From contig JAODTK010000999.1 of NCBI GenBank assembly GCA_026419785.1, positions 558,001-622,000 of the forward strand: DNA of 64,000 nucleotides. The letters run 5' to 3'. Shown here in pieces: positions 6,407 through 62,661 of this stretch; positions within the stretch are counted from its first letter, which is position 1; each line of letters opens with the position of its first letter. Below the pieces are notes generated by a model that saw nothing but the letters and a program-made list of their open reading frames with translations, had not been told where the DNA came from and searched no databases. The DNA comes from Sclerodactyla briareus (lineage: Eukaryota > Echinodermata > Holothuroidea > Dendrochirotida > Sclerodactylidae). The position numbers were made by a program, and so were the translations under genes.

Positions 6407-6552
6407 TTCAAGTAGTTGCTGGCAGTCGGCCTTCTCCGTGGGTCTTTGTGAAGAGAATTCTTCTTGACGAAGCTATGAGGTTCTGACTCCATTTGTGCTT
6501 CTCTTTTAACTTGGGAGGCACGAAGCTACTTTTAGACATTAGAAAAAGGGCC
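6407..6552 (-). CDS. MAP4K3: MAP4K-like kinase exon: ALFLM to RPTA
   Basis: The minus strand reads ALFLMSKSSFVPPKLKEKHK then WSQN, a near-match to the MAP4K3/5 segment after the HPMR motif. After a missing base it continues HSFVKK...HKDPRRRPTASNYL, the kinase subdomain XI region in which the Arg of RRRPTA is conserved. The donor GTAGTTGTG leaves two bases (AA) that join in phase with the exon at 2958. The acceptor reads CTGCG where CTGCAG is expected, so one base is missing exactly at the splice site. The two single-base losses suggest assembly error; if real they would inactivate the exon. Family assignment is secure. Confidence 0.85.
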
Positions 6553-10959: not shown

Positions 10960-11700
10960 CGTGCCGAGAAGGATGCGGATCCGCGGGACCTGAAGTTCGG
11001 AAGCCGGGCGGCGGAAAACGCGGAACCTGCAGGGACGGGCGGCCGCTCGGAGCCAGAAGCGGGAACCGTAAAGACGGAGGCCGGAACCGCGGGCTGTGGG
11101 GGGAGAGGAAGGTGGAGGCCGGGGCGCGGGAACCGGAAAGGGCGGAGGACGGAACCGCAAAGGCCGGAACCCGAAACCGCAGAGACGGGAAGAGCAGCAG
11201 ACCGCAGAAGGGGAGCTGCGGAGGCCCGCCCCCCCCCGCACCCCCCCCCCCCCTCACGGAAAACCGGGAAGGCGGAGGCGGAAGCGGGAACGGAAAAAAG
11301 CGGGAGGCCGGGGACCGCGGTAAAGCGGAGGCGGAACCGCGTGACCGGAAAGGCGGAGGGCGGGACCGAAATCCGGAGCACGGGAAGGTTAGACCGCGGA
11401 GGACGGAGTACGATGCGCCGCAGCTAAGGCACCTGAGACACGCGCCTGGCCCGAAGGGCCGGAGGCCAAAACCACGGAGGCCGAAAAGTTGGAGGCCGGA
11501 GCGCGGAGGCCGGCTGCGGCACCTGATGCCACATAGCCCGGGGCGACAAAAGGTCCGGAGGCCTGAGCTGCGGGTCCCACAGCGCGGCAAATGAGCTCAC
11601 AAGGCCGGGGCCACAAGTTACGAGGCCAGAACCGCAGAAGGCCGGAAAACCGTGAGGTGGAGCCGCGGAGACGAAGCTCCCCGCAGCAACGGCCCCTGAT
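10960..11700. repeat. Degenerate GC-rich tandem repeat (GGAGGCCGGAACCGCGG type)
   Basis: Irregularly spaced purine-rich units such as CGGAGGCCGGA, GGAACCGC and GCGGAGG recur dozens of times on the plus strand, interrupted by a C-run at 11230-11252. The unit length varies around 20-27 bp. All long frames here are readings of this repeat. Confidence 0.7.
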
Positions 11701-14089
11701 GCCCCATAGCTGAAGCGACAAAGGTCCGGAGGACGGAGCTGCGGAGCAGCGGAGGCCGGAGCAGCGGGGCGGGGAGCTGCGGGGCCTGGAGTAATAACGC
11801 TGGCGACGGCGCCGGAGGCGGCAGAGCCCCGAAGTTAAAAGCCCTGAGCCGCGGAAAGCCACGAAGCCGGACGGGGCGAAAGACCGGAGGCGCGGAACCA
11901 CCAAAAAGCGCGGGCCACAAGCCTGGAAGTCGCGGGCCACAAAATACGGGGTCGATTACACGAGCCGCACGGATTTCCAGAGCCGCGGAGCACAAAGCCC
12001 GGAGCCAACTGACAGCCCCGGGGACACAAAAAAGGACAGTAGCACGGAGCCGATGCGGCCAAGAGCTGGCCTCTCGAGCCACGAGTCCCGGAAGCCGCCG
12101 GAGTCACAAAGCCATGTAGCCAGCGGACCCGGAGCAGGTGGAGCTGGCGGCCCCGTGCAGGAGAGCCGTCAGGAGGAAATTGGTTTTCCTGGTGGAGCCC
12201 AGTCCCGGCCAACCAGACCAAAAGATGGACGGCCGCACACCGAGGGGGGGGCTAATCCTCGCAAGAAATCCACCCAAAAACCGCTCGGCCAACCGCAATA
12301 GCGCCAAGGTTAAGAGCGACGTATGGCCTGGACCTCGGCCCAGGGCGAGAGTTGCCTGAAACGAGCGGCTCTCGGGGGGTCTGAGGCAGTGGCGGCGTAT
12401 GTCGACGCTATCGGTATTAGGGGGGAACATGACCGGGAGGTCTCAGTACCCCACGACCCCTGCCACCGGGTAGTGGGCAGTCTCCTCCACCGGCAGGTAA
12501 CTGTGGTTAGTGGGCATCTCAGGGCGTGATTGCGCCGCTGCGCGTTGGAGGGCCGTAGAGTTGAGCTGAAGCCTGCGCGGATAATCAACATCGAGTTTTA
12601 GAGCCATAACATCCGCGGTTGCTTCTCCAGGAGATCACTGCCGAGTAACCATCGGGAAGACCTGCCGGAACATCCGCTGCGCCGAGACCCGCGGAGGGCA
12701 GCCGAAAGCCCGCTCCCGGCACCGTCCCTGGAGGCTGAGTCCAGGCGCGCGGTCACCGGGCCGACAGGGCTCGCTCCGCGACTAACCTGTCCCAAGCCTG
12801 CGCCAGGAACCACCAAACAACAGATGCAGCAGAATCAAGAACGAAAACGAGATCTTCGGCCCTGTTCAAAGCGGCACAAACGAATAGCCATAGCCATGCG
12901 GAATGCTCCGCAGCGAACGGCATAGGCGGAGGCGGGCAGCAGAGCTGCGTTGCAAAAAAGGCGGGCCAGCCCCCTGTTATGGCGTAGCGACCGGACGGGT
13001 CCGCAACCGCGGGCGAGAGGTGAGGGGAAAAAGGGAGGATGTGAAAAAACGGCAAGCTGGGACCAGCATCCCGCGGTGGGATGGCGCGGGCTACCGCTGC
13101 TGTGTGTGGGAAACAACCAAGGCTTCCGCAGTCGCGCGTTTACCAGCAGAGCTTCCCTCGAGGAGACGCGTGGTCGCAGGAAAAACGGCCGGGGGGACCT
13201 GCGCCTTACGCCAGCTCCATCTGCTGTTACGGAAGGCGGTCAGCCCGAAGTTGGGGCGGTCCCGGCGAGCAGAAGAAGACTGGAGAGGCGGCGCGGGGCT
13301 AGCGGGCTGGGTGGTTTGGATCAGCTCGGACTAGTCGGACCGGATGGACGGCTGCTCACGTCTACGTCCGAATGTTCTCGCGGTGGTACAGCCTTGCGGG
13401 AGGGAGGAGGCGAACTGCAGCGCAGAAAAGAACCGTGATGCACCTGGAACAAGGCGATGCCACCCGGGCGAGTCGGAGACATCCAGGTTAGCTGCGGCTC
13501 AGCACGTTGGCCGCGGCTGCCGCTGCTGCACGGACCGGCCGTGCTTAGCGGGCTCCTTCATACAGCCATCGCCAAGGCACCACATACTCACCCTCCGATA
13601 TGTTGCTGTTCCGAGCCGCGAGTCCAGACCTCAACGAGCCACCAGTGCGTTTCCGAGCAGTGACTCGTCTCCCGCGGATATAGCAAGCGCGGGCCGCGCG
13701 CCGGATTTGAGCGCAGCGAGCCGGCTCTAACGGACCATGGAATAGGTGCTCTAACGATATTCAGGGCCGGCACTGCCGAGACGCGGGCGGATTACAGATG
13801 CCGTGGAAAAGGATCTGAGGGCCAGCAAAACCAAACGGGAGGTGTCGGCCTGGTCGAGCTGCGGGACGTCTACCGGGGCCCGCCGAGCCGCACGCCGACG
13901 GGGGTGAGGTCGCCCGAGGTAGCGGTCTGGTTCCGCGGGGGACCCCTCAGAGGACATCAATGAAGGCACTGCCGAGCCGCAGGTCGGCTCTGCAAGCCAT
14001 GGGTCGGCTGCTATGACGAGCACATGGGTCGCTTGCTGCGCCGGGGTGGGCTCACCGAGCAGGACTGGCTCACCAGACGGGGGCCAGCA

Positions 14090-14870
14090 TTTACCGATCA
14101 ATGGGGTAGGCTATGCCAAGCGTGGGTAGGTTTCTGCCAAGCGGGGTTGGCCCTGCAGAGCTGGACCGGCATCTACCTGGGTGGGTAGGCGCTGCATGGC
14201 AGTGGTGGGTCGGCGCTGCATGGACGTGTGCTCGGCCCGCCGAGACGTGGGCACGGCTCTTCCGAGCGGTTGTCGGCCTTGTAAGCCGGGGGTCGGCCCT
14301 GCTGAGTCATAGACCGGCCTATACCGAGCCGGGAGTGCTCAGGCCGTGGAAAGGCTCCGCCGAGCCGTGGAGCGGCAGTGATACTGAGCCGCGATGCCCT
14401 CAGCCGAGCATGTGGTGTGGATCTGCAGAGCTCGTGGTCCGGCTTTCGAGCTGGGAAGGCTCTTTCCGAGCCGTGGCCCTGCTCTAACGAGCCGCGGGTC
14501 GGCTCTACTGGCGGTGGACCCGTTCGGCTTACCAAAGTGCAGGGTCGGCTTCACCGAGCCGTGGCCCGCTGAGCAGAGCAGGTGGGTCGGCTATTCCGAG
14601 CCGCGGCCCGCTCCACCGAGGGGGGGGGGCCGGTTTGGACGGCTCGCCGAGCCGGGGGGCGCTCTTCCGAGCCGTGCCAGGCTCTCGAAGCGCGTGGCGG
14701 CTCCACCGCGCGTTGGCCCGGCTCGTGCCGACGACGTGGGCAGCTTTTCGAGCCGTGGGCCGGCTCCACCGAGCCGTGGCGGCTCCACGAGCATAGGTCG
14801 CTCTACCGAGCGTGGTCGGATCTTACGAGCCGGGGCGGCTTACCGAGCGTGGGTCGGCTCGGCCGCCTCT
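14090..14870. repeat. Degenerate GAGCCGTGGGTCGGCTCTACC tandem repeat
   Basis: About thirty degenerate copies of a ~22-bp unit containing CCGAGCCG and GTCGGCTC. Each unit is partly palindromic (CGAGCC/GGCTCG), so the array can fold on itself. It is non-coding; the frame giving 291 codons here reads repeated Pro/Ser/Arg/Ala runs. Confidence 0.7.
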
Positions 14871-16386
14871 TCCGAGGCGTGGGTTGGCTCTCTGGGCTCT
14901 CCAGAGCCAGGGCCACACCGGGCCGAGCCGTCGTCCAGCTCCATCGACGGCGGAATGCCGCGGCGGGCGGGGCTGTCCCGGGCCAGGGGCCCGAGCGCAG
15001 ACAAGGCGCACGGGGATTCCCCATGGGGGCCTAAGAGCGATATGCGAGCCGACAGGGGCCATGGGGACGGTTCTCAGGGGCGCGCGTCGCGGAGCCGGAC
15101 AAAGTTGCCGCTCTCTAGGCATTTACTCGGGGCGTGGTCACGCCGACCGTCGTCATGGAATGGTGATCAATCTCCCGAAGCGTTGGCGGGACCATTTGAA
15201 GTCGCGGGTGTTGGAGGTGCGGAGGAGGGCATCTGGCGGTTCCGATGCTTGGTCGAAGTCAGCTGGTAACTCCCAGTGTCCGGATCCCGAATCACCTGGC
15301 CGGACTGTGGCCGCCCTATATTTCCCCAGGGCCGTGAGCCACCGGCACCACCGTATACGGGAAACGAACATCCAACACCGGCCGCGGCACATTAAATCCC
15401 GGATCCACGAGCCACCGGGGACATCCGGTAGCCAAAGAGTGGATTAATCCCTAACGACGCGCGTAATTACGACGGTCCACAGAGACGGACGTCCGGTGTC
15501 ACGGCTCGGTGATGCATGACGTCCACAGCACAATGAGATGTGCTGGAATTTTCCGTTGGAGAAAAGAAATGGAAGTTACGGATTCAAAAACAGCCTCCCA
15601 CGGCCAAAAATTTTGTTACTACACGAAGATTTTGGAAGCCTCCTCCGTAGAAAAACTCAAGAAGTCTACGGAGAAAATCGATGGAGAACTGACAGAGCGA
15701 CAGGGGGGGAAAAAAATTCGGCGCGAGTCCCCGGGGAAGTTTGAATTCCCCTGAGCGGGCTCTTTTGAACAAAAAAAATTCTCTCTCGCGCGCTGCCGCC
15801 CGCTGCAAGGCCAAACAACCAAACAGGGGGCCCTAAAAGGTCCCCAAAAACCCGGGGAAGGGAAGGGGAACGGGAAACCCAAGGGGCACGGCAGGGGGGA
15901 CGGGGAGGGGAAGGGTTAGAGGGGTAGGGCCTCGGGAATGAAACCCGAAAGGCAAGAAGCCGCGCGGGCCAGGCGCTAGGCCGTACCGCGTTAGTGTTAG
16001 GCTGGCTGCAGTCGCAAAACAATACAGCAGGTAGAAGCTAGGCTAAACGCCCGCGCAGGGGAACGGGCGGGTAGAGAAGATCCGGGTAGAGAGAGACTAA
16101 AAACCTTTCAAAACTCACGTAAGTGAAGAGATACTTGAACGAAAAGGTGACGAAAAACGCTGACTAATCCGCTAACGTAAAAGAAAAGATGTAGAAAGCC
16201 AGAAAAACATACTAGGGACCGATGTTGGGGGGAAAATCTTAGAGCCAAAAAACTCGACGAACTAGAAAACTTAGGCCTGGCAAAAAGAGAAGGGCGATGC
16301 GGGTGGCCAACCAGCATTTGTGTAATTGCCAGAAGCTCGACGTGGCAAGGGGGTGGGTGTATAGTCCAAGTGGGGTAGTGATAAAT

Positions 16387-16861: not shown

Positions 16862-16940
16862 CTCATAGGATGAAGGTCAAACATCGGTGGTTGCAACTCA
16901 GCCAGCTCTATTGCAGTGATGCCCACAGCCATATGTCACA
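16862..16940 (-). CDS. MAP4K3: MAP4K-like kinase exon: CDIWAVG...HPMR
   Basis: After the acceptor TTGACAG the minus strand reads CDIW and, after one missing G in a TGGGCT context, [20 protein letters not shown] then PMR, followed by the donor GTATGTATTT. This block of kinase subdomains IX-X is almost invariant in MAP4K3/MAP4K5 and is the clearest identification in the window. Expected length is 80 bp; 79 are present. The missing base falls in a G run, the typical site of a long-read assembly error. The exon ends after AG and joins in phase to G-GCC of the 6.5 kb exon (Arg-Ala). Confidence 0.93.
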
Positions 16941-18860: not shown

Positions 18861-21800
18861 TCCCGCAACACTGTAAGAGTTCAGGGATATTTGGTTTTGA
18901 CCCTGTGCCCGCCGTCTCCGCCGCCGCCGCCGGAAACTTTGAGGCGGTTAGCGCTCTCACTTCTTTAACAATTCATCCGATTGACCCAAACTTGGTACAC
19001 ATGTCCGTATTAAGGTAAGATCTCGGATAAGTTCGAAAAGGGCTATATCGTATATTTGTTGCCCTATCTTGCAGGTTTTGTAGACAAATTTTCAAGTTTG
19101 TGCGATTTCCACGAAACGTGGTGGTTGGGGTAGTTGTTGGGAGCCGAAAAACATGCGACCAATTTCAAGGTCATCGAGGTCAAGTTTGCATTTTTCTTTG
19201 GCCAGTAGCCTTAATTATGCATAATGTATGTATATTTCAAACTTCATGGATTTTCATGAAACTTGGTGAATTAGGGCCAAACTATCAGTGCCGATGAATT
19301 GTCAAAGGTGCGAGGTATGGAGGGTCATCTGCATGAATAATTGGCATAATAGTTGGCCCAATCAGCAAGTAGGCCAAATTTATAAACTTTGTTGGATTCT
19401 CACGAACTTGGTGAGTAGGGACCTTCTAACATCCCGATAAATTTATTTCAATTGAGTTTTGATGAAATCACTGGGTCATATTGGTTACTTTACATATTCT
19501 TAGCAATAATTAGATAAATTAATGCAAGTATTTTCTCAACTTTAGGGATTTTGACGAAACTTGTTGAATAGGACCTACTACCAGTCCTGATAAACTTTAT
19601 TCAATGGAATCAAGATCAACTGAGGGTAAATTTGTGGGACTAATTTGATATAGTTTCCTGATCAGTGAAATTGATGAGTTTAATACTTTTTTAGCAATAA
19701 CATTGGACAGTTCATTGGAATGCAAATGCTCTAGGAGTGGATGCATCACAAGGGAGTGTAACATTTTCATAAAAAACCGCTTCATTGAAGGTCATTAAGG
19801 TCACTTAGGGGGTCAAAAAATGATTTTAGTACTTTTCCGGCAAAAGCCCTGGGTGTGTTCATCAGAATGACAAAAATGCTCCTAGGGAGTGGAGGTATCA
19901 CATGGAGAGGAACAACTTTTATAAAACTGTCATATAATTTAAAGGTCATTCGGGGTCACTTAGGCGTTAAAACTGGTTTGGGGCTATAATCGGAGAATTG
20001 AATATCTGCGAAGGATGGATGGTTCACCATTGTGAATATAATTGTGACCGCATGGTCTGACCTTGACCTGACTTGGACGCTGGCGGGTGTCATGTGGTTA
20101 AAGAAATGTCGAATATTGAATAATGTGCTTATTTACGGAGTTACGGCCAAAGAAAAATAGGAACTGGTTATTTTTTGGAGATGTGATAGACATTTGTGTG
20201 CGTCATGGAGGGAAACAAATCCGCTCGATCGGACACTACTTGCGTAGTTACAAGGGGTCAGAGGTTCATTTTATACCTTTTTTGCAATAACATTGGGACA
20301 TGTTCATTGGAATGCAATATGATTCTAGGAGTGAGGTCACACATGAAGAATAACAATTTTTATAAGAGCCGCCATGTCATTGAAGGTAATTAATGGTCAC
20401 TTAGGGGTCATAAACTGATTTGGTACTTTTCGGCAATAGCAATGGGTGTGTTCAATCAGATGCAAAAAGCTCCTAGGAGTGATGATCACATGGAGAGTAA
20501 CAATCTATAACAAACTGTTACATCTAAGGTCATTGGGGTCACTTAGGGGGTCAAAAAACGTTTTTTTGGCTATAACGGAGAATTTTGAATATCTGGAAGG
20601 CTGGATGGTTCACCATTGTGATATAATTGTGACCTGCATGTGTGTGACCTTGAATGAATGTGACCTCTTGCGGGGGGTCATGTGGTTAAAGGCGAATCTT
20701 GAATAAAATGTGTATTTAAGGAGTTAAGGGCACAAAAAAAATAGAAATGTGTTATTTTGGGCTAGGTGATAGAGCTTTGTGTGCTTTATGGAGGGAAACA
20801 AAAAAAAATAGTATCCCGCTTCGAATCGGACACTTACTTTGCGTTAGTTACAAGGGGTCAAAAGTTCAATTTATCCTTGTTCGCAATAACATTGGTCATG
20901 TTAATTGGAATTCAATATGCTTATGGAGTGGAGGCATAACATGGAGTGTAACATTTCATAAAAAACGCCATGTCATTGAAGTCATAAAGGGCACTTAGGG
21001 GGTCAAAAAACTGAATTTAGTACTTTTTCGGCAATAGCAGGGTGTGTTCATAAGATGCAAAAATTGCTCTGGGAGTAGGAGTATCACATGGAGAGTAACA
21101 ATGCTCATGGAAACTGTCATATCATAAATGTCATTCGGGGTCACTGAGGGTCAAAACTGTGTTTCTGGGCTATAATCGGAGAATTGAATATCTGCAAGAT
21201 GGATGGGTACCATGTGATATAAAAGGTTGTTTTTGAAACCTGCATGTGTGTGACATCGACCTGGAATTGCCTCTGTCGGGTGGTCATGTGGTTAAAGGTC
21301 GAATCTTGAAAATGTTGCTATTTAAGGAGTTACGGGCAAAAAAAAATAGAAAAATGGTTATTTTTGGATATGTGAAAGAGTTTGTGTGCATTCATGGAGA
21401 GAAACAACTGCCCGCTGCGATCGAACATTTACTTTGGTAGTCAAGGGGTCAAATTCAGTTTTATCCTTTTTTTTGCAAACAACATGGGACATTTCATTGG
21501 AATGCAATATTCTTTTCTAGGATTGGATGCAATCAACATGGTGTACCAATTTTCAGAAACCGCCATGTCATTGAAGGTCATTAAAGGTCCCTTGTGTCAA
21601 AACTGATTTAAGTACTTTCTCGGCAAATAGCACTGGGTTTGTTCATCAGACTGCAAATGCTCCTAGGAGGGGATCTATCACACGAAAGGGGGTGGTAGTA
21701 ACAATTTTCATAAACTGTCAATAATCATTAAAGGTCATCGAAAGAGGTCACTTAGGGGTCAAACCTGTTGCTGGCTATAACCGAGAATTGAATATCTTGC

Positions 21801-22116
21801 GAAGGCTGGATGGTTCACCATTGGGATTAATTGTTGACCCTTCCTGTGTGACCCGACCTGAATTGACCTCTGACCTGAATTTGGACCTCTGTCGGGGGCC
21901 ATGTGGGTTAAGGTCGAATCTTAATAAATGTGCTTATTTAAAGGACGCACCTTGTCCGGGGGCTGTAGGGGTGCCGCATAAATTAAAGTGCATTATGAAT
22001 GACCCATTTCCCTGTACACCATTTCGTTCACAATTCTATAAATGTCTTCTTTCCAAATTTTTGAATAGAGATAGGGGATATATATGTCTGGCGTTTACCC
22101 TCCCGACATTTCCTAG
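18861..22116. mobile_element. Helitron-like non-autonomous element with internal satellite
   Basis: It begins TCCCGCAACACTG after an A and ends GACATTTCCTAG before a T, preceded by GGATATATATGTCTGGCG...CCC; these fit Helitron rules (5'-TC, 3'-CTRR, insertion between A and T, subterminal hairpin). Near the start is a CCGCCGCCGCCG stretch followed by GGAAACTTTGAGGC and ACTTGGTACACATGTCCG. The same ordered head is found at 30550 and, more diverged, at 34682, and similar tails at 31532 and about 35158. The interior is dominated by tandem sequence rich in GGTCA and carries no enzyme gene. Structure resembles HINE/pearl-type elements known from molluscs. Confidence 0.55.
19600..21960. repeat. ~600-bp tandem repeat, about four copies
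   Basis: The anchor GAATATCT(T)GCGAAGG/GGAAGG occurs at 20000, 20587, 21186 and 21790, giving periods of 587, 599 and 604 bp. Each unit contains GGTCACTTAGGGGTCAAAA, GCAATAACATTGGGACATGT and GGTTCACCATTGTG. Copies differ mainly by single-base insertions and deletions. It forms the swollen core of the Helitron-like element. Confidence 0.85.
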
Positions 22117-26232: not shown

Positions 26233-26734
26233 TGAAAACATTCAGAACTATTAAATTACCATTCAAATCCAAGGAACACATAAGATAATGTTCTATATAG
26301 TACCTACACTAGAAAGCTACACACACTCTAGCAACAAATGGCAATACTCAACTAGAAATTGGAATAATCATCATAATGTACGCCTGCAAAATTTCACACC
26401 GTCTCTCAGAATGGAGCAATAACCTTCCATCTTCTTAACTGTAACCTGAGATACAACAAGGAACACTGGTGACATTCCTAATGGCATGAGAGAAGGAGTG
26501 AAATGTTATCATTAGGTTGCCACAATCTCCCCCCCCCTCCTTCCCCTCCCTCTCGCCTGCTACAGGCTGCTATGGTGATCAATCTCAGTGACAGGCAATC
26601 ATGTACTACACAGATACCAAAACAGTTCACTCTAGTCCGCACGCTTTGGGGGCTCGCCGAGGGATACTAACAGTCAATATCCATTGACAAAGAGTAGAGC
26701 TGGCTAACAAGCGCAAGTCACAACGTCTTGATAG

Positions 26735-26965
26735 CTGCAGACAGCAAAATTCCTGTGGCGAATACACTGCATGTTCTTCACCAATCCACATTTATTGTTT
26801 GTCCACATTTAATTGACCTTTTACTGAACATCTGTCATGACCATGGAATGGCTTGGAACATGTCTACCACATGGCCTAATATTTGATATCAGTGCCCAGC
26901 ACAAAGTACCCAACTGAATATTCCTAAGTCACGTATATTAATCTATCTGTATGCAACAAAACCCA
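26735..26965. repeat. Dispersed repeat, intact relative of the copy split at 62661
   Basis: AATACACTGCATGTTCTTCA, CCACATTTATTGTTTG, TTTAATTGACCTTTTACTG, GGAATGGCTTG(G)AACATGTCTA and AGTACCCAACT appear in the same order and orientation at 62455-62661. The homology continues after the hAT element, at 63961-64000. This copy is the uninterrupted version. Confidence 0.75.
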
Positions 26966-28009: not shown

Positions 28010-29160
28010 AATATAGACAATATTAGAAATGTGCACATGCCCATAGTAGTCTCTCTCACATAAAAATCCTAGCCTCTCCCATGGATGACCTCTTCTGAGG
28101 CCATTCAGAATGTTTTTCACCACTTATCCCATGCACAACCCTTCTCTAATCTTTTCCAATGTGACCCTTGTCTCACCTGGTAATCATTCATACCCACTCT
28201 TTCTCTCAACTGACCTCCTCTAGAGCCATCCAGAATGCTGTTCACTTGCTTTCCCACCCACACATCCCCTGCCTCTCCCACTGTGACCATCCTCTCACTT
28301 AATGATTATTACATCTTTCCTATATCTGGATGGCCTCCTCTTGATCCATTCAGAATTTTGTTCACCTATTTTCCCATGTTCACCCTCTCTCATCTTCCTC
28401 CCATGTGACCCGTGTCTCAACTGGTAATCATAGCCATCCCTTACTCTCAACTGACCTCCTCTAGAGCCATCCAGAATGCTGTTCACCTGTTATACCACCC
28501 CCAACTCTCCCCTGATCTCTTCCAATGTGACCCTTGTCTCACCTGGTAATCATAGCCACACTTTCTTTCAACTGACCTCCTCTAGGGAGTACCAGAATGC
28601 TGCTCACCTGTTATACCACCCCCAACTCTCCCCTGATCTCTTCTAATGTGACCCTTGTCTCACCTGGTAATCATTCATAACCACTCTTTCTCTCAACTGA
28701 CCTCCTCTAGGGAGTACCAGAATGCTGCTCACCTGTTATACCACCCCCAACTCTCCCCTGATCTCTTCCAATGTGACCCTTGTCTCACCTGGTAATCATA
28801 GCCACACTTTCTTTCAACTGACCTCCTCTAGGGAGTACCAGAATGCTGCTCACCTGTTATACCACCCCCAACTCTCCCCTGATCTCTTCTAATGTGACCC
28901 TTGTCTCACCTGGTAATCATTCATACCCACTCTTTCTCTCAACTGACCTCCTCTAGGGAGTACCAGAATGCTGCTCACCTGTTATACCACCCCCAACTCT
29001 CCCCTGATCTCTTCTAATGTGACCCTTGTCTCACCTGGTAATCATTCATACCCACTCTTTCTCTCAACTGACCTCCTCTAGGGAGTACCAGAATGCTGCT
29101 CACCTGTTATACCACCCCCAACTCTCAACCTGATCTATTCCAATGTGACCATCATATCAC
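28010..29160 (-). repeat. ~122-bp minisatellite derived from the adjacent kinase exon
   Basis: On the plus strand the anchor CACCTGGTAATCA recurs at about 28057 (diverged), 28174, 28296, 28418, 28540, 28661, 28786, 28907 and 29032, then at 29158 as the splice donor of the kinase exon (periods 121-126 bp). On the minus strand each unit reads CATTCTGGATGGCTCTAGAG or CATTCTGGTACTCCCTAGAG, then GTCAGTTGAGAGAAAG, GGCTATGATTACCAG, GTGAGACA and intron-like GGGTCACATTGGAAGAGATC. This parallels the exon's ATACTGGATGGCACC, GAGAGGAAGGTGGC, TTACCAG/GTGATATG and GGTCACATTGGAATAGATC. So the array amplifies the 3' half of the exon (WMAPE...VERKGGYDYQ region) plus ~60 bp of its downstream intron. Confidence 0.8.
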
Positions 29161-29295
29161 CTGGTAAATCTAGCCACCTTCCTCTCTACAGCGCCACTTA
29201 TGGTGCCATCCAGTATGAGTACCGCCATGAACGATTTCTCTTCCGAGATTGTTTTTTTTTTTATGGGTGATTGGGGCAGAGGGACACAACGTCAG
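29161..29295 (-). CDS. MAP4K3: MAP4K-like kinase exon: DFG to P+1 loop (indel-rich)
   Basis: The acceptor TTTCCAG precedes CTGAC, which completes an Ala codon with the G ending the 36.8 kb exon (Ala-Asp of ADFG). The order is that of the activation segment: CTGCCCCAATCACC (SAQIT), ACAATCTCGGAAGAGAAATC (TISKRKS), GGTACTCATACTGGATGGCA (GTPYWMA), then GTAGAGAGGAAGGTGGC (VERKGG) and TTACCAG before GTGATATG. An 11-A run replaces the expected ACCGCA, several single bases are missing, and TAA stands where the Glu of APE is expected. The exon is 135 bp against an expected 125. Either local sequencing noise or true decay; minisatellite copies nearby preserve GGCTATGATTACCAG, showing what the 3' end should be. 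Confidence 0.75.
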
Positions 29296-29639
29296 CTGGA
29301 AAGTCCAACATGGATATGACAGGATGTGATAATACCTCTCATTTTTCCAGTGCTCATGGTAGGTCACTATTGGTCCATGGGGACACTTACACAAAAATCA
29401 TTACCCAAGTCACCAAAAAATGAATTATCATAGTACTTTGGTTACTTTGACACTCCAGAGAATCCAGTGCTCACCTGAAGACCTGAACTGACAGCATTAT
29501 GGAAAGATGCTCATCCAATGATTGGGACTGCTGCCTATCTGCTGATGAGAGCAGCCGGACTGCATGAACTAGTGCAAGAGTGCACGTGATGTGAGATTTA
29601 TGAAATTGCGCCCATCACCAGTTCACATGTCCTAGCTAC

Positions 29640-30225
29640 CAACATGTCATGCATAGGCCATTGCAGTAGCATTTTACTAAAGCAATGTAACAGTAGACAA
29701 CAAGGACTTCAAGGCTACGACCTGATACTGCAACCCCTACAGAATGCACTCACCAGCTTTCAGTCAGCTAAGTCATCTCCACCTATTGCTGGTTTCCCCC
29801 TTATCCACTTGACTTTCAGGAATCGTCATACATCCTAAAACACTTCACTGCACCTGCAATCTGAGCAAATAAAACCTTCCGGTGACTGCAGACTAGCAGC
29901 ATTCTAGAAACACTTTGCAATCTATTTGCAAGTACCAACAGTCAGGCACAGGGCCATTGCAGTAGCATTTTACTGAAGCAATGTAACAGTAGATCAACAA
30001 GGTCCTCAAGGCTGCGAGCCTGATACTGCAACCACTACAGAATGCCTCACCAAGGCTTTCGGTCAGCTAGATCAGCTCCACTCTGCATGGTTTCACCCTG
30101 TTCCCTACTGGACTTTTGAGGAATGATACATCCATCCTAAAACTCGTTCCACGCACATGTATTCGCAACTAACACTTCCAGGTGATGCAGAATAGCAGGC
30201 TATGACCGTAATTTGCGCGCTCGAC
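29640..30225. repeat. Two-copy tandem duplication, 296-bp period
   Basis: GGCCATTGCAGTAGCATTTT starts at 29656 and again at 29952, followed in both by GCAATGTAACAGTAGA, CCTGATACTGCAACC, CTACAGAATGC and a tail with CATCCTAAAAC and AATAGCAG/CTAGCAG. Indels separate the copies. Non-coding. Confidence 0.85.
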
Positions 30226-30549: not shown

Positions 30550-31532
30550 TCCCTGCGACATTGGAGGTGTCTGGGGATATATGGTTTGGGTGTATCGCCG
30601 CCGCCACCGCCACCGTCCCAGGCTCCGTCGCCGCCGCCGGAAACTTTAGCCTAAGCGCAATAACTCTTCAACGCTTTATCGATTGATCTGAGACTTGGAA
30701 CACATGTCCGTCCTAGTGGAATCTCTGGATGAGTTCGAAAGTGGGGCATAACTGCACATTTGGGGGTGCTAATTGGCCATAATTACATTGAAATTGTCAG
30801 TAGGATTTGAACATACTTGGTGGGTAGGGACTATAGTTGATTCCGAAAATGTGGAGGTCATATCAAGGTCATCGAAGGTCAAATTGGCATAAATTTATGC
30901 AATTTTTCAAACTTCGTCAGATTTCGAAACTTGGTGGGTAGGGACTATAGTGGATCCCGAAAAATGTGGAGGTCATTTCAAGGTCATCGGAGGTCAAATT
31001 TGTGAAATTTATGCGATTTTTCAACTTCATCAGATTTCGAAACTTGGTGGGTAGGGACTATAGTTGATCCCGAAAAATGTGGAGGTCATTTCAAGGTCAT
31101 CGGAGGTCAAATTTGTGAAATTTATGCGATTTTTCAAACTTCGTCAGATTTCGAAACTTGGTGGGTAGGACTATAGTTGATCCCGAAAAATGTGGAGGTC
31201 ATTTCAAGGTCATCGGAGGTCAAATTTGTGGAATTTATGCGAATTTCCAAACTTTGTCAGATTTGAACGAAACTTGGTGGATGGGGGCTAAATTTTTTCT
31301 ACACAAAGTTCGGAGGGCAAGTCATTTCAACAAAGCCATCGTGTGTCAAAATTTTGCAGTAATATCTATGTCCTATTACTTCTATGGATTACAACAAAAC
31401 TTGGTGGATGAAGTTTATCTTGGTTTCTGACCGTAATGGGGGTCTTTATGGGGCTGTTAGATACTTCTTCCCAATGATTGCTCAAAAGCGGGGATGTACA
31501 CGTGGGCGGGTTTCCCGCCTACACATGTCTAG
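30550..31532. mobile_element. Helitron-like non-autonomous element, second copy
   Basis: It starts TCCCTGCGACATTGGAGG after an A. A CCGCCGCC(A)CC segment and GCCGCCGGAAACTTTAGCC follow, then ACTTGGAACACATGTCCG as in the 18861 copy. It ends GTGGGCGGGTTTCCCGCCTA, then CACATGTCTAG: a GC-rich hairpin directly before CTAG, as at Helitron 3' ends. Five ~114-bp monomers (anchor TGGGTAGGGACTATAG at 30821, 30936, 31048, 31162 and a variant at 31278) form the core; each contains GGTCAT.TCAAGGTCATCG.AGGTCA. The core differs from that of the 18861 copy while the ends are shared. Confidence 0.6.
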
Positions 31533-36797: not shown

Positions 36798-36840
36798 CTA
36801 ATTTGACATCACCGTTATCTGTGAGTAAAATGTTCGCTCC
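36798..36840 (-). CDS. MAP4K3: MAP4K-like kinase exon: GANILLTDNGDVKL
   Basis: A 43-bp exon with acceptor TTTTTAG and donor GTGAGTGACG encodes GANILLTDNGDVKL plus one base. It carries the catalytic-loop Asn (NILL) that binds magnesium in protein kinases and runs up to the residue before ADFG. It follows HRDIK of the preceding exon in phase 0 and leaves phase 1, completed by CT at 29295. No indel is needed. The sequence is near-identical to MAP4K3/5 of other animals. Confidence 0.93.
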
Positions 36841-37465: not shown

Positions 37466-37569
37466 CTTTATATCTCTGTGCATTTTCTTCAAGTCGTGCA
37501 TATATTTTAAACCCGTTAAAGTTTCTTTGCATACGTATGCTATCTGTGGTTCCGTGAGGCCGCCAGTCA
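37466..37569 (-). CDS. MAP4K3: MAP4K-like kinase exon: TG...AYVCKETL...MHRDIK
   Basis: A 104-bp exon with acceptor TTTCAACAG and donor GTAAGAATTT encodes [17 protein letters not shown] then [17 protein letters not shown]. It covers the alpha-E helix and the start of the catalytic loop, including the catalytic Asp of HRD and the Lys of HRDIK. The family counterpart is VTGPLSE.QIAYV.RETL.GL.YLH..GKMHRDIK. It starts in phase 1, so the preceding exon must end with the first base of a Val codon. No indel is present. This is the most upstream exon I can identify; the glycine loop, VIK lysine and CGGGSL exons were not found. Confidence 0.95.
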
Positions 37570-37687
37570 CTGTTGAAAGGTAATACAGAAAAATTATTTG
37601 AAATGCGATTAGTGTGAATTTAGTTCAACTGGAATGAGGGATATGAATGATAACACAGCATAATTTATGCATTATTTTAATACTGAG

Positions 37688-46140: not shown

Positions 46141-47500
46141 ATTTGGATGAGCAAGCCTGTTAACTTAGTAACCAACGGCTGGTAAACATGTTCAGTAGCA
46201 CTGAACATAAGATTATGACTGGCATTAAATCAGTCAACTGTGTCAAGTGCATGCAAGGTTATAGCACTGATGATAGTGTGAATGTGTGTCCACCTCATCA
46301 GTGGCCCTTTGAAAATTTTCTGACAAGCACACCAGGCTGGATTGATTTGCTAGATAGTAAAAGGTTTTCTCAGCACCAATTGTGAGAGGCAAAAACACTG
46401 GGCGGATCCTAAACGGCACCTACAGGGAGGGCAATGAATGTAAGGGAGACTAGCAGCCCAGGTTGGACCTTTAGTCGTAGGACCTAAGGTCTTAGGACCT
46501 TGGGCCTTGATGTTGATGGATTCTTAGATTTACCAAGAACGCAAAAATAGTTGTGCCCAGAGCATGTGAAGAGCAAACAGTTTAATATACATGTATGGAA
46601 TGCCTCACGAAGGCTGAGGGTGTTTGATAGACCGTCTCAACTACCCCCCCCCCCACCGTTGTACCCCTGATACATTTACTGTGCCAACCACCGGCCACTA
46701 TTCATAGTAGTAGTCCATCTTGGCAAATTCTAACACATCCGATTTGGCCACACAACTTTTCCTGTCTCTGGATCACTATTCACATATTCAAGTCACGGTC
46801 CTGGCTGCAAAAGCATTCACCACGGCATTTTGACATTTCCACTGAAATTCTAAATGATATAGTCTAGTACATCTTTTTATAAAACATACTCACTGTGATA
46901 AAAGATCATGTAAAGAGCCTCCGCCGCAAATGCCATCGCTATCCATAATTCTATCTTCTCAAGTAGCTACCAAAATATCTACAATGTTCGCATGCCTACA
47001 GTCTTTCATACAAGGATTTCTGTTGGTTATGGAGAGTCATCACCTGCAAAGAAATACAAAGAGAAAAGAAAGAAATATAATCGGAAAGCCAATTCAGGAA
47101 CAACTGTTTCATTGAGGAATTCTCAGGAGTGCCAAAAAAATATGCCTCAAGCATACAACAGAGTAGGCATGATCAACTGATGTCAATTACGTAACAAATT
47201 TCTCAATTACGTATGGAATTGTATTCCTCGATGCTACACCTCTCCTCATTGAACAACAGAGCAAAGGGTTGTTCCTGAATGGTGGAGGTGGATCTCGTAC
47301 CTTTGATGTGATGTTATATACTATACCTGATTTAATTCTTTAGCCATGTAAACTTCCTAGCTTCCCTAACTTTGAAAGGAAGGCAATGGTGCAACCACTT
47401 GGGAATGGGGTCACAGCAATGACAGCCGTGCCTTTGAAAACACAAAACTGTTGCTCACTGCTTCTCCCCCCCACCACACTCAACATCCAAACAGCTGTGC
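46141..47500. other. Sequence without recognised features
   Basis: Contains a C-run at 46645-46656 and a GACCTAAGGTCTTAGGACCT palindromic stretch near 46480; no gene or matched repeat. Confidence 0.4.
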
Positions 47501-57390: not shown

Positions 57391-57567
57391 CTTCGAAAAA
57401 GATCGAAGAGTTTCACGTCAGTGGTTGTGCACCAATCCACTACAAGTCTACAAGGCCATTGTTTCAATTCAGGGCACAATTTCATAACTACAAATTTCAG
57501 ATAACTTTCATCCGAACTTCACCTCTATGTGTATAGTTCCATGCCTCAATTTTCAGTCTTCTTGCTT

Positions 57568-60372
57568 AAACAGCAGTGGGGCTTTGTCCCATCAGATTAT
57601 TTTTCCTGCACTTCTTTGCACAAAAGTGGCAGGGGACGGCAGTGGCATGGGGGGAGCAATGTGGACATGAGCATGGCGGTACTATTTCACCTCTCCCCCC
57701 TCGACCTCAAAAACTGGGGAGAGAACTGGGGGGGGGACCGCATATATTTCTATTTATCACACAACCCACATGGCAGTTTGACGTGAGACTCCTGCATATT
57801 TTCTTCAGTGATGCAGGGATGCATGCATAGCCCACACACTGGCTACAACACATGTGCACAGCAGTAGTGCCAGTATTCAGCGTGTTGCTATTGATGTGTA
57901 CATAGCACAGCTAATACACAGCTATTTCAGTGACTCGCATTAAAATTCTAACAGAACTAGCAACACCTTCATTATCTAAGGATCATGGATTCGCGATGAA
58001 TGATGCTGTGATTCACGTTGACCTACAGTACATAAACCTCCATGAATGAATGAACTAGATTTACTAGATAGTCGATACAACAATTGTAATTAACAGCTCC
58101 AGCAATGATTCAATCACATTTGAAACAAGTTTCAAGCCATGTCTAGCTTCGGGGTCAACAACGAAAGCCTACGTTGGTGCAATGCGGCAGCGCAGTTACG
58201 AGTTAATTGTTTAGAGCTACTCTTTGCTGTGTGTACAGTGTGGACACGGATTCTATGATCTCTGCATCTTAACTAGCAGTGGTGCTTTTTTCCCATCATA
58301 TTCTTTTTTCCTGACTTCTTTGCAAAAGTGGCATGTGGGGCAGTGGCAGTGGGGTGGAGCAATGTGGACATGAGCATGGCGGTACTATTTCACCTCTCCC
58401 CCGTCGACCTCAAAAACTGGGGAGAGAACTGGGGGGGGGACCGCATATATTTCTATATTATCACACAACCCACATGGCAGTTTGACGTGAGACTCCTGCA
58501 TATATTCTTCAGTGATGCAGGGATGCATGCATAGCCCACACACTGGCTACAACACATGTGCACAGCAGTAGTGCCAGTATTCAGCGTGTTTTGCTATGGA
58601 TGTGTACATAGCACAGCTAGTACACAGCTATTTCAGTGACTCGCATTAAAATTCTAACAGAACTAGCAACACCTTATTATCTAAGGATCATGGATTCGCG
58701 ATGAATGATGCTGTGATTCACGTTGACCTACAGTACATAAACCTCCATGAATGAATGAACTAGATTTACTAGATAGTCGATACAATTATAATTAACAGCT
58801 CCAGCAATGATTCAATCACATTTGAAACAAGTTTCAAGCCATGTCTAGCTTCGGGTGTCACACAAGTCAAGCCATTGTTTGGGTGTAATGCGGGGGGGGC
58901 AGGCAGTTAATTGTTTAGAGCTACTCTTTGTTGTGTGTACAGTGTAGGACTACGGATCTATGATCTCTGCATCTTAACTAGCAGTGGTGCTTTTTCCCAT
59001 CATATTCTTTTTCCCTTACTTCTTTGCAAAAAAGGGCAGTGGGGGCGGCACATTGGCAAGTGGGTGGAGACAATGTGGACATGAGCATGGCGGTACTATT
59101 TCACCCTCCCCCGTCGACCTCAAAAACTGGGGAGAGAAACTGGGGGGGGGAGGGACCGCATATATTTCTATATATCACACAAACCCACATGGCAGTTTGA
59201 CGTGAGACTCCTGCATATATTCTTCAGTGATGCAGGGATGCATGCATAGCCCACACACTGGCTACAACACATGTGCACAGCAGTAGGGCAGAGTATTCAG
59301 GGTTGCTATGGATGTGTACATAGCACAGCTAGTACACAGCTATTTCAGTGACTCGCATTAAAATTCTAAAGAACTAGCAACACCTTCATTATCTAAGGAT
59401 CATGGATTCGCGATGAATGATGCTGTGATTCACGTTGACCTACAGTACATAAACCTCCATGAATGAATGAACTAGATTTACTAGATAGTCGATACAATTG
59501 TAATTAACAGCTCCAGCAATGATTCAATCACATTTGAAACAAGTTTCAAGCCATGTCTAGCTTCGGGTGTCACACAAGTCAAGCCATTGTTTTGGTGTTA
59601 ATGCGTCAGGCAGTTAATTGTTTAGAGCTACTCTTTGTTGTGTGTACAGTGTAGGACTACGGATCTATGATCTCTGCATCTTAACTAGCAGTGGTGCTTT
59701 TTCCCATCATATTCTTTTTTCCTGACTTCTTTGCAAAAGTGGCATGTGGGGCAGTGGCAGTGTGGTGGAGCATGTGGACCATGAGCATGGCGTTAATCAC
59801 CTCTCCCCCGTCGACCTCAAAAACTGGGGAGAGAAACTGGGGGGGGGAAAACCGCTATATTAATCTATATATCACACAACCACAGGCAGTTTGACGTGAG
59901 ACTCCTGCATATATTCTTCAGTGATGCAGGGATGCATGCATAGCCCACACACTGGCTACAACACATGTGCACAGCAGTAGTGCCAGTATTCAGCGTGTTG
60001 CTATTGATGTGTACATAGCACAGCTAGTACACAGCTATTTCAGTGACTCGCATTAAAATTCTAAACAGAACTAGCACACCTTCATTATCTAAGGATCATG
60101 GATTCGCGATGAATGATGCTGTGATTCACCGTTGACCTACAGTACATAAACCTCCATGAATGAATGAACTAGATTTACTAGATAGTCGATACAACAATCA
60201 TAATTAATTACACACACCAGCATGTTCCTCACCATTTGAAACATTTCAACATGTCACTTCGGGTGTCACACAAGTCAAGCCATCGTTTGGGTGCAATGCG
60301 GCAGCAGTTATTGTTTAGAGCTACTCTTTGCTGTGTGTACAGTGTAGGACTACGAATCTATGATCTTTGCAA
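57568..60372. repeat. ~705-bp tandem satellite, four copies
   Basis: The anchor A(A)C(T)AGCAGTGGTGCTTTTT occurs at 57568, 58271, 58976 and 59683 (periods 703, 705, 707). Every unit contains GACATGAGCATGGCGGTACT, ACCTCAAAAACTGGGGAGAG with a long G run, GATGCATGCATAGCCCACAC, GGATCATGGATTCGCGATGA and CTAGATAGTCGATACAA. Copies are highly similar and differ largely by single-base indels, especially beside G runs. Short frames in each unit are shadows. Confidence 0.92.
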
Positions 60373-62200: not shown

Positions 62201-62454
62201 TTTTTTGCCGATACAGTCTTGGAATGTGACCCCATATTATAGTCTTGAAAATAACATCCCCACTCCAGTCCCTGCTATCAGGGATCGAATAAGGAGCAAG
62301 GCCCATGGTTACTTTTCAAAAGAAATAGCCCATGGTTCGTGGATTCTGGCATGGGACCGGGGTTATTTTGGTAGGACCCAGGGCTCTGATCACTTTCTCA
62401 GCTTCTGCATTGGTGGAGGACCAGGCTTCAAGAACCAAACAGCGCAAGTCAAAA

Positions 62455-62661
62455 AGTCTTGCAGCTGCGGACGCATAATTCCTGGGCAAATACACTGCAG
62501 GTTCTTCACCAATCAACATTTATTGTTGGTTCACATTTAATTGACCTTTACTGACTCTGTCAAACTTTGGAATGGCTTGAAACATGTCTAGTCTACCCCA
62601 TACCACATCTAATATTTGCTATCAGGTTCCCAGCACGAAGTACCCAACTACTCATTCCGAG
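62455..62661. repeat. Dispersed repeat (same as 26735-26965), interrupted by hAT
   Basis: Same blocks and order as 26735-26965; homology stops at 62661 and resumes at 63961 with ATTCCGAGGCCTGTATATTA (compare ATTCCTAAGTCACGTATATT near 26921). Confidence 0.75.

Follow-up and report, generated by a model that had tools for sequence, protein, structure and literature searches.

The activation-segment exon of a MAP4K3/5-type kinase gene in the holothuroid Sclerodactyla briareus is directly followed, on its 3' side, by about nine tandem copies of its own exon-intron boundary. This array lies in the 64,000-nucleotide stretch of contig JAODTK010000999.1 analysed here (positions 558,001 to 622,000, referred to as the window), and each full unit joins the 3' part of the exon (residue ~176 onward) to the splice donor and ~60 bp of adjoining intron. 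The array is probably an intronic exon-boundary minisatellite of the kind described in lancelets as 'mirages', multiplied by exchange or slippage and recently homogenised near the exon. It would have started with the tandem duplication of a segment reaching from about residue 176 of the exon, across the 5' splice site, ~60 bp into the intron; the copies would thereafter have behaved as intron sequence, increasing in number through unequal exchange or slippage. The five units nearest the exon (U1-U5) would recently have been homogenised as 125- and 121-bp types, with exon halves and the first ~30 nt of intron of the type found in the distal units and with distal tails of the type found in the exon-bearing unit (U0). 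In that case, the intron part of U0 would have taken part in the exchange and its exon half would have remained distinct.

The host gene was located by a frameshift-tolerant scan of the whole window with human MAP4K3, which found six exons of a MAP4K3/5-type kinase domain, all collinear on the minus strand (Table 1). Their scores range from 65 to 154. The highest score among the remaining minus-strand matches, array excluded, is 57; the plus strand reaches 56 and one shuffled window 52. The kinase identity proposed in a preliminary description of this DNA is borne out by that order and by the activation-segment exon itself, which scores 75 against human MAP4K3 while 30 shuffles reached at most 35. 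With frameshifts allowed, kinase-domain exons with a YWMAP/VERK activation segment and with CDIW after it place the gene with the MAP4K3/5 (GCK-type) kinases; no open reading frame runs through the kinase domain, as four of the six exons carry indels as assembled. The aligned part of the activation-segment exon is 29252-29146, extended in the whole-window scan to 29252-29124 (residues 164-206), where its end passes into the intron. The 5' part, 29295-29253, falls outside the program alignment and resembles the DFG segment by eye. Its acceptor, ttccag/CTGAC at 29296/29295, and donor, CAG/GTGATA at 29161/29160, were likewise set by eye, and its phase is consistent with those of the exon that ends at 36798 (..AAATTAG/GTGAG) and the exon that starts at 16940 (ag/TGTGAC). 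The scan alignments of these two neighbours span 36840-36793 (residues 139-154) and 16940-16852 (residues 195-224, the last part into the intron); those of the exons for residues 104-138 and ~222-269 span 37570-37452 (residues 104-143, again ending in the intron) and 6570-6406 (residues 215-269).

Table 1. Kinase exons and array units in the window (positions in the 64,000-nt stretch)
Feature	Position	Strand	Basis and remarks
Upstream exon, residues 52-103	46895..47044 (alignment limits)	-	MAP4K3 alignment; several 1-2-bp indels
Upstream exon, residues 104-138	37466..37570 (alignment limits)	-	MAP4K3 alignment; indel-free
Upstream exon, residue 139 onward, 14 codons and one base	36798..36840	-	Indel-free; ends in phase 1
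Activation-segment exon, MAP4K3/5-type, residues ~155-194	29161..29295	-	Frameshift alignment and by eye
Downstream exon, residues 195-221	16862..16940	-	MAP4K3 alignment; one 1-bp deletion; donor ATGAG/GTATGT by eye
Downstream exon, residues ~222-269	6407..6552 (ends by eye)	-	MAP4K3 alignment; three indel events
U0, exon-bearing unit: exon 3' half, donor and first 65 bp of intron	29096..29217	-	
U1-U5, recently homogenised, order A A B A B	28479..29095	-	CAG/GTGAGA in 5 of 5
U6, diverged	28358..28478	-	Keeps CTGGATGGC; donor GT changed to TT
U7, old diverged copy	28238..28357	-	Kinase match not directly detectable
U8, diverged	28113..28237	-	Highest kinase score among the nine copies (50); CAG/GTGAGA
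U9, partial, most degenerate	28050..28112	-	Lower limit approximate

When the six MAP4K exons with 60-bp flanks were each compared with 1.5 kb on either side, exon sequence was found repeated nearby only at the activation-segment exon (score 109, maximum 30 in 40 shuffles). Within a few bases of the donor of the exon for residues 222-269, on its intron side, begins a ~109-bp two-copy tandem duplication (6401-6342 and 6292-6229, minus strand) of intron sequence only; it scores 46, with a maximum of 27 in 40 shuffles, and may represent another duplication linked to an exon boundary of this gene.

The exon next to the array had been called authentic. As assembled, it has no open frame: several indels break it and it carries a TAA, so its function is not to be assumed. 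Across the six exons, 15 indel events fall in 580 aligned nucleotides, distributed as 0 at 37.5 kb, 0 at 36.8 kb, 1 at 16.9 kb, 3 at 6.5 kb, 5 at 47.0 kb and 6 in the aligned part at 29.2 kb. Such a load, the TAA and the lack of an intact second copy of the activation-segment exon anywhere else in the window would suit an unprocessed pseudogene or decaying duplicate, with a non-functional exon beside which the array could expand unconstrained. That the whole locus has this status is nevertheless unlikely. Under decay, 5.0, 3.7 or 2.4 in-frame stops would be expected at assumed indel:substitution ratios of 0.1, 0.15 or 0.25, and 84-41 of 185 codons should have changed over the same range of ratios. 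The alignment contains 0 in-frame stops, a count from which the TAA is excluded because it was absorbed as an indel and which, at the ratio of 0.25, still falls inside the simulated 5-95% range (0-5). Furthermore, whole codons match the human sequence at a similar rate in the three most indel-rich exons (78 of 109) and in the two indel-free ones (37 of 49). Patchy assembly error is a likelier source of the indels than pseudogene decay, although not firmly so, as the neighbouring units U1-U5 look clean.

The array itself was delimited by TRF at 28149-29167, with a period of 125 (8.3 copies) and one of 246 (4.1 copies). Anchoring on unit patterns on the minus strand resolves it into U0, eight units of 120-125 bp (U1-U8) and the partial U9. 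The downstream copies U1-U9 extend from 29095 to ~28050, in agreement with the earlier count of about nine directly beyond the exon. The five units nearest the exon measure 125/125/121/125/121 bp in order and represent two nearly fixed types. U1 equals U2 exactly, U3 and U5 are one base apart, and U1-U5 as a whole vary only by unit type and two single bases. Their exon halves are 89-100% and their tails 97-100% alike, whereas U6-U9 have diverged; U7 is 58-69% identical to the other units in its exon half and, U9 apart, 63-75% in its tail. The pattern TACCAGGTGAG occurs six times in the window, always within the array, where 0.02 occurrences would be expected. The RNA structure predicted for one 246-nt dimer is no better than that of shuffled sequence (z 0.56; 141 of 200 shuffles as good).

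The clean state of U1-U5 beside an indel-rich exon leaves room for misassembly here and for a wrong copy number. Moreover, one published mirage is reported to have been aberrantly assembled in a draft genome. An assembly artefact as the origin of the array, or of its junction with the exon, is very unlikely, however: the units fall into several divergence classes in a mosaic arrangement that a contig repeated in error would not produce.

Descent of the copies from the exon was assessed at the protein level by frameshift-tolerant alignment of MAP4K3 residues 155-198 with the first 64 nt of each unit, with 100 shuffles each. U0 scored 52, U8 50, U6 45, U1, U2 and U4 42 each, U3 and U5 40 each, U9 21 and U7 16. 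U0 and seven of the nine copies (U1-U6 and U8, scores 40-50) exceeded all of their shuffles; for U7 and U9, 70 and 26 of 100 shuffles did as well, and neither gives a direct kinase match. At the DNA level, the exon halves of U3 and U6 match the window's own exon better than any of 1000 shuffles, followed by U8 (1 shuffle as good), U5 (2) and, more weakly, U4 (12), U2 (16) and U1 (20); the match fails for U9 (54 of 1000) and U7 (940 of 1000). No shuffle out of 1000 equalled the similarity of the U0 tail to the intron tails of U1-U5, U7 and U8; the tails of U6 (92 of 1000) and U9 (890 of 1000) do not match it. Both the seeding of the array by the exon and the inclusion of the 5' splice site with adjoining intron in the unit, as first described, are thereby upheld. 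The test proposed with them, that each unit should align with the exon better than shuffled sequence, is passed by U1-U6 and U8 and failed by U7 and U9. Two points run contrary to the proposed origin: U7 and U9 lack a direct match to the kinase, and neither U6 nor U9 has a tail matching that of U0. For units U3 and U8, the rest of the window gave scores of at most 27, compared with 119 and 66 at the exon. A search for the exact unit pattern in viral contigs returned nothing, which is little informative for an animal genome.

Tandem exon-like copies with good donors, adjoining a conserved exon, might also be taken for a cluster of alternative, mutually exclusive exons. They almost certainly are not one: such a cluster would consist of complete exons with acceptor, donor and open frame, and the copies lack the exon 5' half, their matches starting at residue 174-176, as well as any pyrimidine-rich acceptor recognisable by eye. 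All four of the array units traced (U1, U3, U6 and U8) are also frame-broken. The break falls at the same codon in each, so their common source was probably a single copy that already carried the mutation, rather than the exon copied repeatedly.

In the exon halves, U1, U2 and U4 share 90-92% identity with U8, and U3 and U5 share 80% with U8 and 84% with U6; for each of these five units, identity to U0 is 69-70%. The intron parts of six of the ten units were compared piecewise, cut 30 nt past the exon end (the analyst's choice). The first intron part of U1 and U3 also sides with U8 (90 and 93%, against 80 and 83% to U0), but their distal tails are 94% identical to U0 and 62-65% identical to U6, U7 and U8. 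On this evidence from U1 and U3, U1-U5 are mosaics that switch from distal-type to U0-type sequence roughly 30 nt beyond the donor. The simplest cause of this pattern would be unequal exchange of the array with the exon-bearing unit. That the exon half of U0 escaped homogenisation fits purifying selection on exon and donor and does not prove it; the argument is a weak one, because the break falls within the intron rather than at the donor, and sequence error may also have lowered the identity of the U0 exon half.

The preliminary description further distinguished two sub-lineages, formed by deletion of different parts of the exon. Two sequence types do exist, as U1-U5 carry CTGGTACTCCC and U6 and U8 carry CTGGATGGCTC (CTGAATGG in U7 and U9), yet separate deletions find no support. 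The exon halves of U1 and U8 differ solely in one 7-bp block with 5 mismatches, for which a single template-switch or conversion event could account equally well. GGTACTC occurs in the exon too, a match too short to decide on separate exon deletions.

Many ready-made donors beside a real one make exon-boundary minisatellites natural tests of donor choice in splicing. Sites were scored here with a human donor matrix at a threshold of 7 bits. On this scale, the 1173-bp array contains 19 sites of at least 7 bits, compared with 0.96 per kb in the remaining 39387 bp of the gene, which confirms the row of donor-like sites noticed earlier. Shuffled array bases still gave 5.4 sites on average and 13 at most (200 shuffles), so part of this excess reflects base composition. 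The exon-derived site CAG/GTGAGA (10.87 bits by the human matrix) is present in six of the nine downstream units, and a second site, CAG/GTGAGC (11.21 bits), occurs in five places, one of them in U0. By the same matrix the authentic donor, CAG/GTGATA, reaches 6.8 bits. The exon is followed by GTGATATGA, and reading past the authentic donor meets a TGA at the third codon; use of a decoy donor would consequently give a truncated kinase or nonsense-mediated decay.

These features could be read as a regulatory device, in which strong array donors compete with the weaker authentic one and tune the output of the gene. Besides the donor scores, their density and the early TGA, such a role could draw on the agreement of the donor 9-mer among five units (mean 0.93, compared with 0.82 for the whole unit). 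It is distinctly improbable all the same. The donor shows no special conservation among these five units, since 16 of 117 nine-base windows, its own included, are equally conserved; the GT is lost in U6; the donor excess is in part compositional; and the authentic donor may itself hold a sequence error. In addition, mirages are reported not to interfere with splicing (PMC3087553, PMC3902484). The array is more probably a largely neutral by-product, tolerated by normal splicing. An extended scenario is very improbable: a MAP4K array of the mirage type, possibly outside lancelets, that exchanges intron sequence with U0 while purifying selection keeps exon and donor out, whose dense U1-type donors compete with the weak authentic donor and whose copy number tunes inclusion of the activation segment.

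An exon-seeded array of this kind was initially thought unusual. However, tandem repeats spanning exon-intron boundaries are described for several lancelet genes under the name of mirages, namely Adh3, the globins BflGb6 and BflGb9, and troponin C, with similar imperfect repeats in PGBD5 (PMC3087553, PMC3902484). As described there, mirage units measure 10-72, 150-160 or 157 bp, carry splice signals (AG/GT) in many but not all copies, and form length-unstable arrays homogenised inside with the edges excluded (PMC3087553, PMC3902484). The present array is likewise a minisatellite-like series of tandem copies of an exon-intron boundary within one gene. Its unit crosses the boundary of the host exon (exon 3' half, donor and ~60 bp of intron), U1-U8 lie within the size range of about 10-160 bp, CAG/GTGAGA is present in six of nine units, and a homogenised block is accompanied by divergent copies, although this block borders on the exon instead of lying exactly in the centre. 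By these four sequence characters, the array is an addition to an already described class. The 3' exon boundary is duplicated here as it is in BflGb9. BflGb6 has 3-6 units where the present array has ~9 downstream. It differs from the mirages further in lying in a kinase gene, in having a seed exon that bears indels as assembled, and in its visible mosaic with the exon-bearing unit. What is new is thus a case in an activation-segment kinase exon and a visible exchange between array and exon-bearing unit, which extend a described phenomenon and do not open a new one. It has been suggested that new introns can arise from exon-boundary minisatellites (PMC3087553).

Other systems are more distant. 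The variable internal tandem repeats of human segmental duplications average 30-bp units in four copies, half of them in coding sequence (PMC2812944). They resemble the present case as minisatellite expansions, some of them at exon-intron boundaries with cryptic splice sites (PMC2812944), and differ from its intronic units of 120-125 bp. In intron 1 of sea bream myostatin-2, a ~150-bp block is present in one or two copies depending on the allele (PMC3045353). It shares with the kinase array a position at the 5' end of the intron, with at most two copies; the part of the paper available does not state whether the block has exon content (PMC3045353).

Elsewhere in the window, Rfam gave no family at gathering score and no tRNA was found. 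Among 81 ORFs of at least 85 aa, a set that left out those with a low end between 10700 and 15500, a weak Pfam match to PsbL (E 0.0063) was taken as chance. The region 11001-16000, whose ORFs were mostly outside this set, has 58-70% G+C, well above most of the window, and an AT skew of 0.63 at 11001-12000. Further tandem arrays include a 89-bp unit in 15 copies at 765-2130, with higher-order periods of 180 and 269 bp, and a 113-bp unit in about four copies at 30815-31280, in the intron upstream of the activation-segment exon; neither matches MAP4K3 at the scan threshold. Two arrays have longer units, of ~703 bp at 57565-60371 (about four copies, 89-92% alike) and ~600 bp at 19677-21945 (diverged, 77-81% alike, with a marked G-over-C skew). 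Close to the kinase exon lies a direct repeat (29637-29899 and 29933-30198, 82% identical), and a dispersed repeat pair at 26706-26915 and 62438-62649 is 83% identical.
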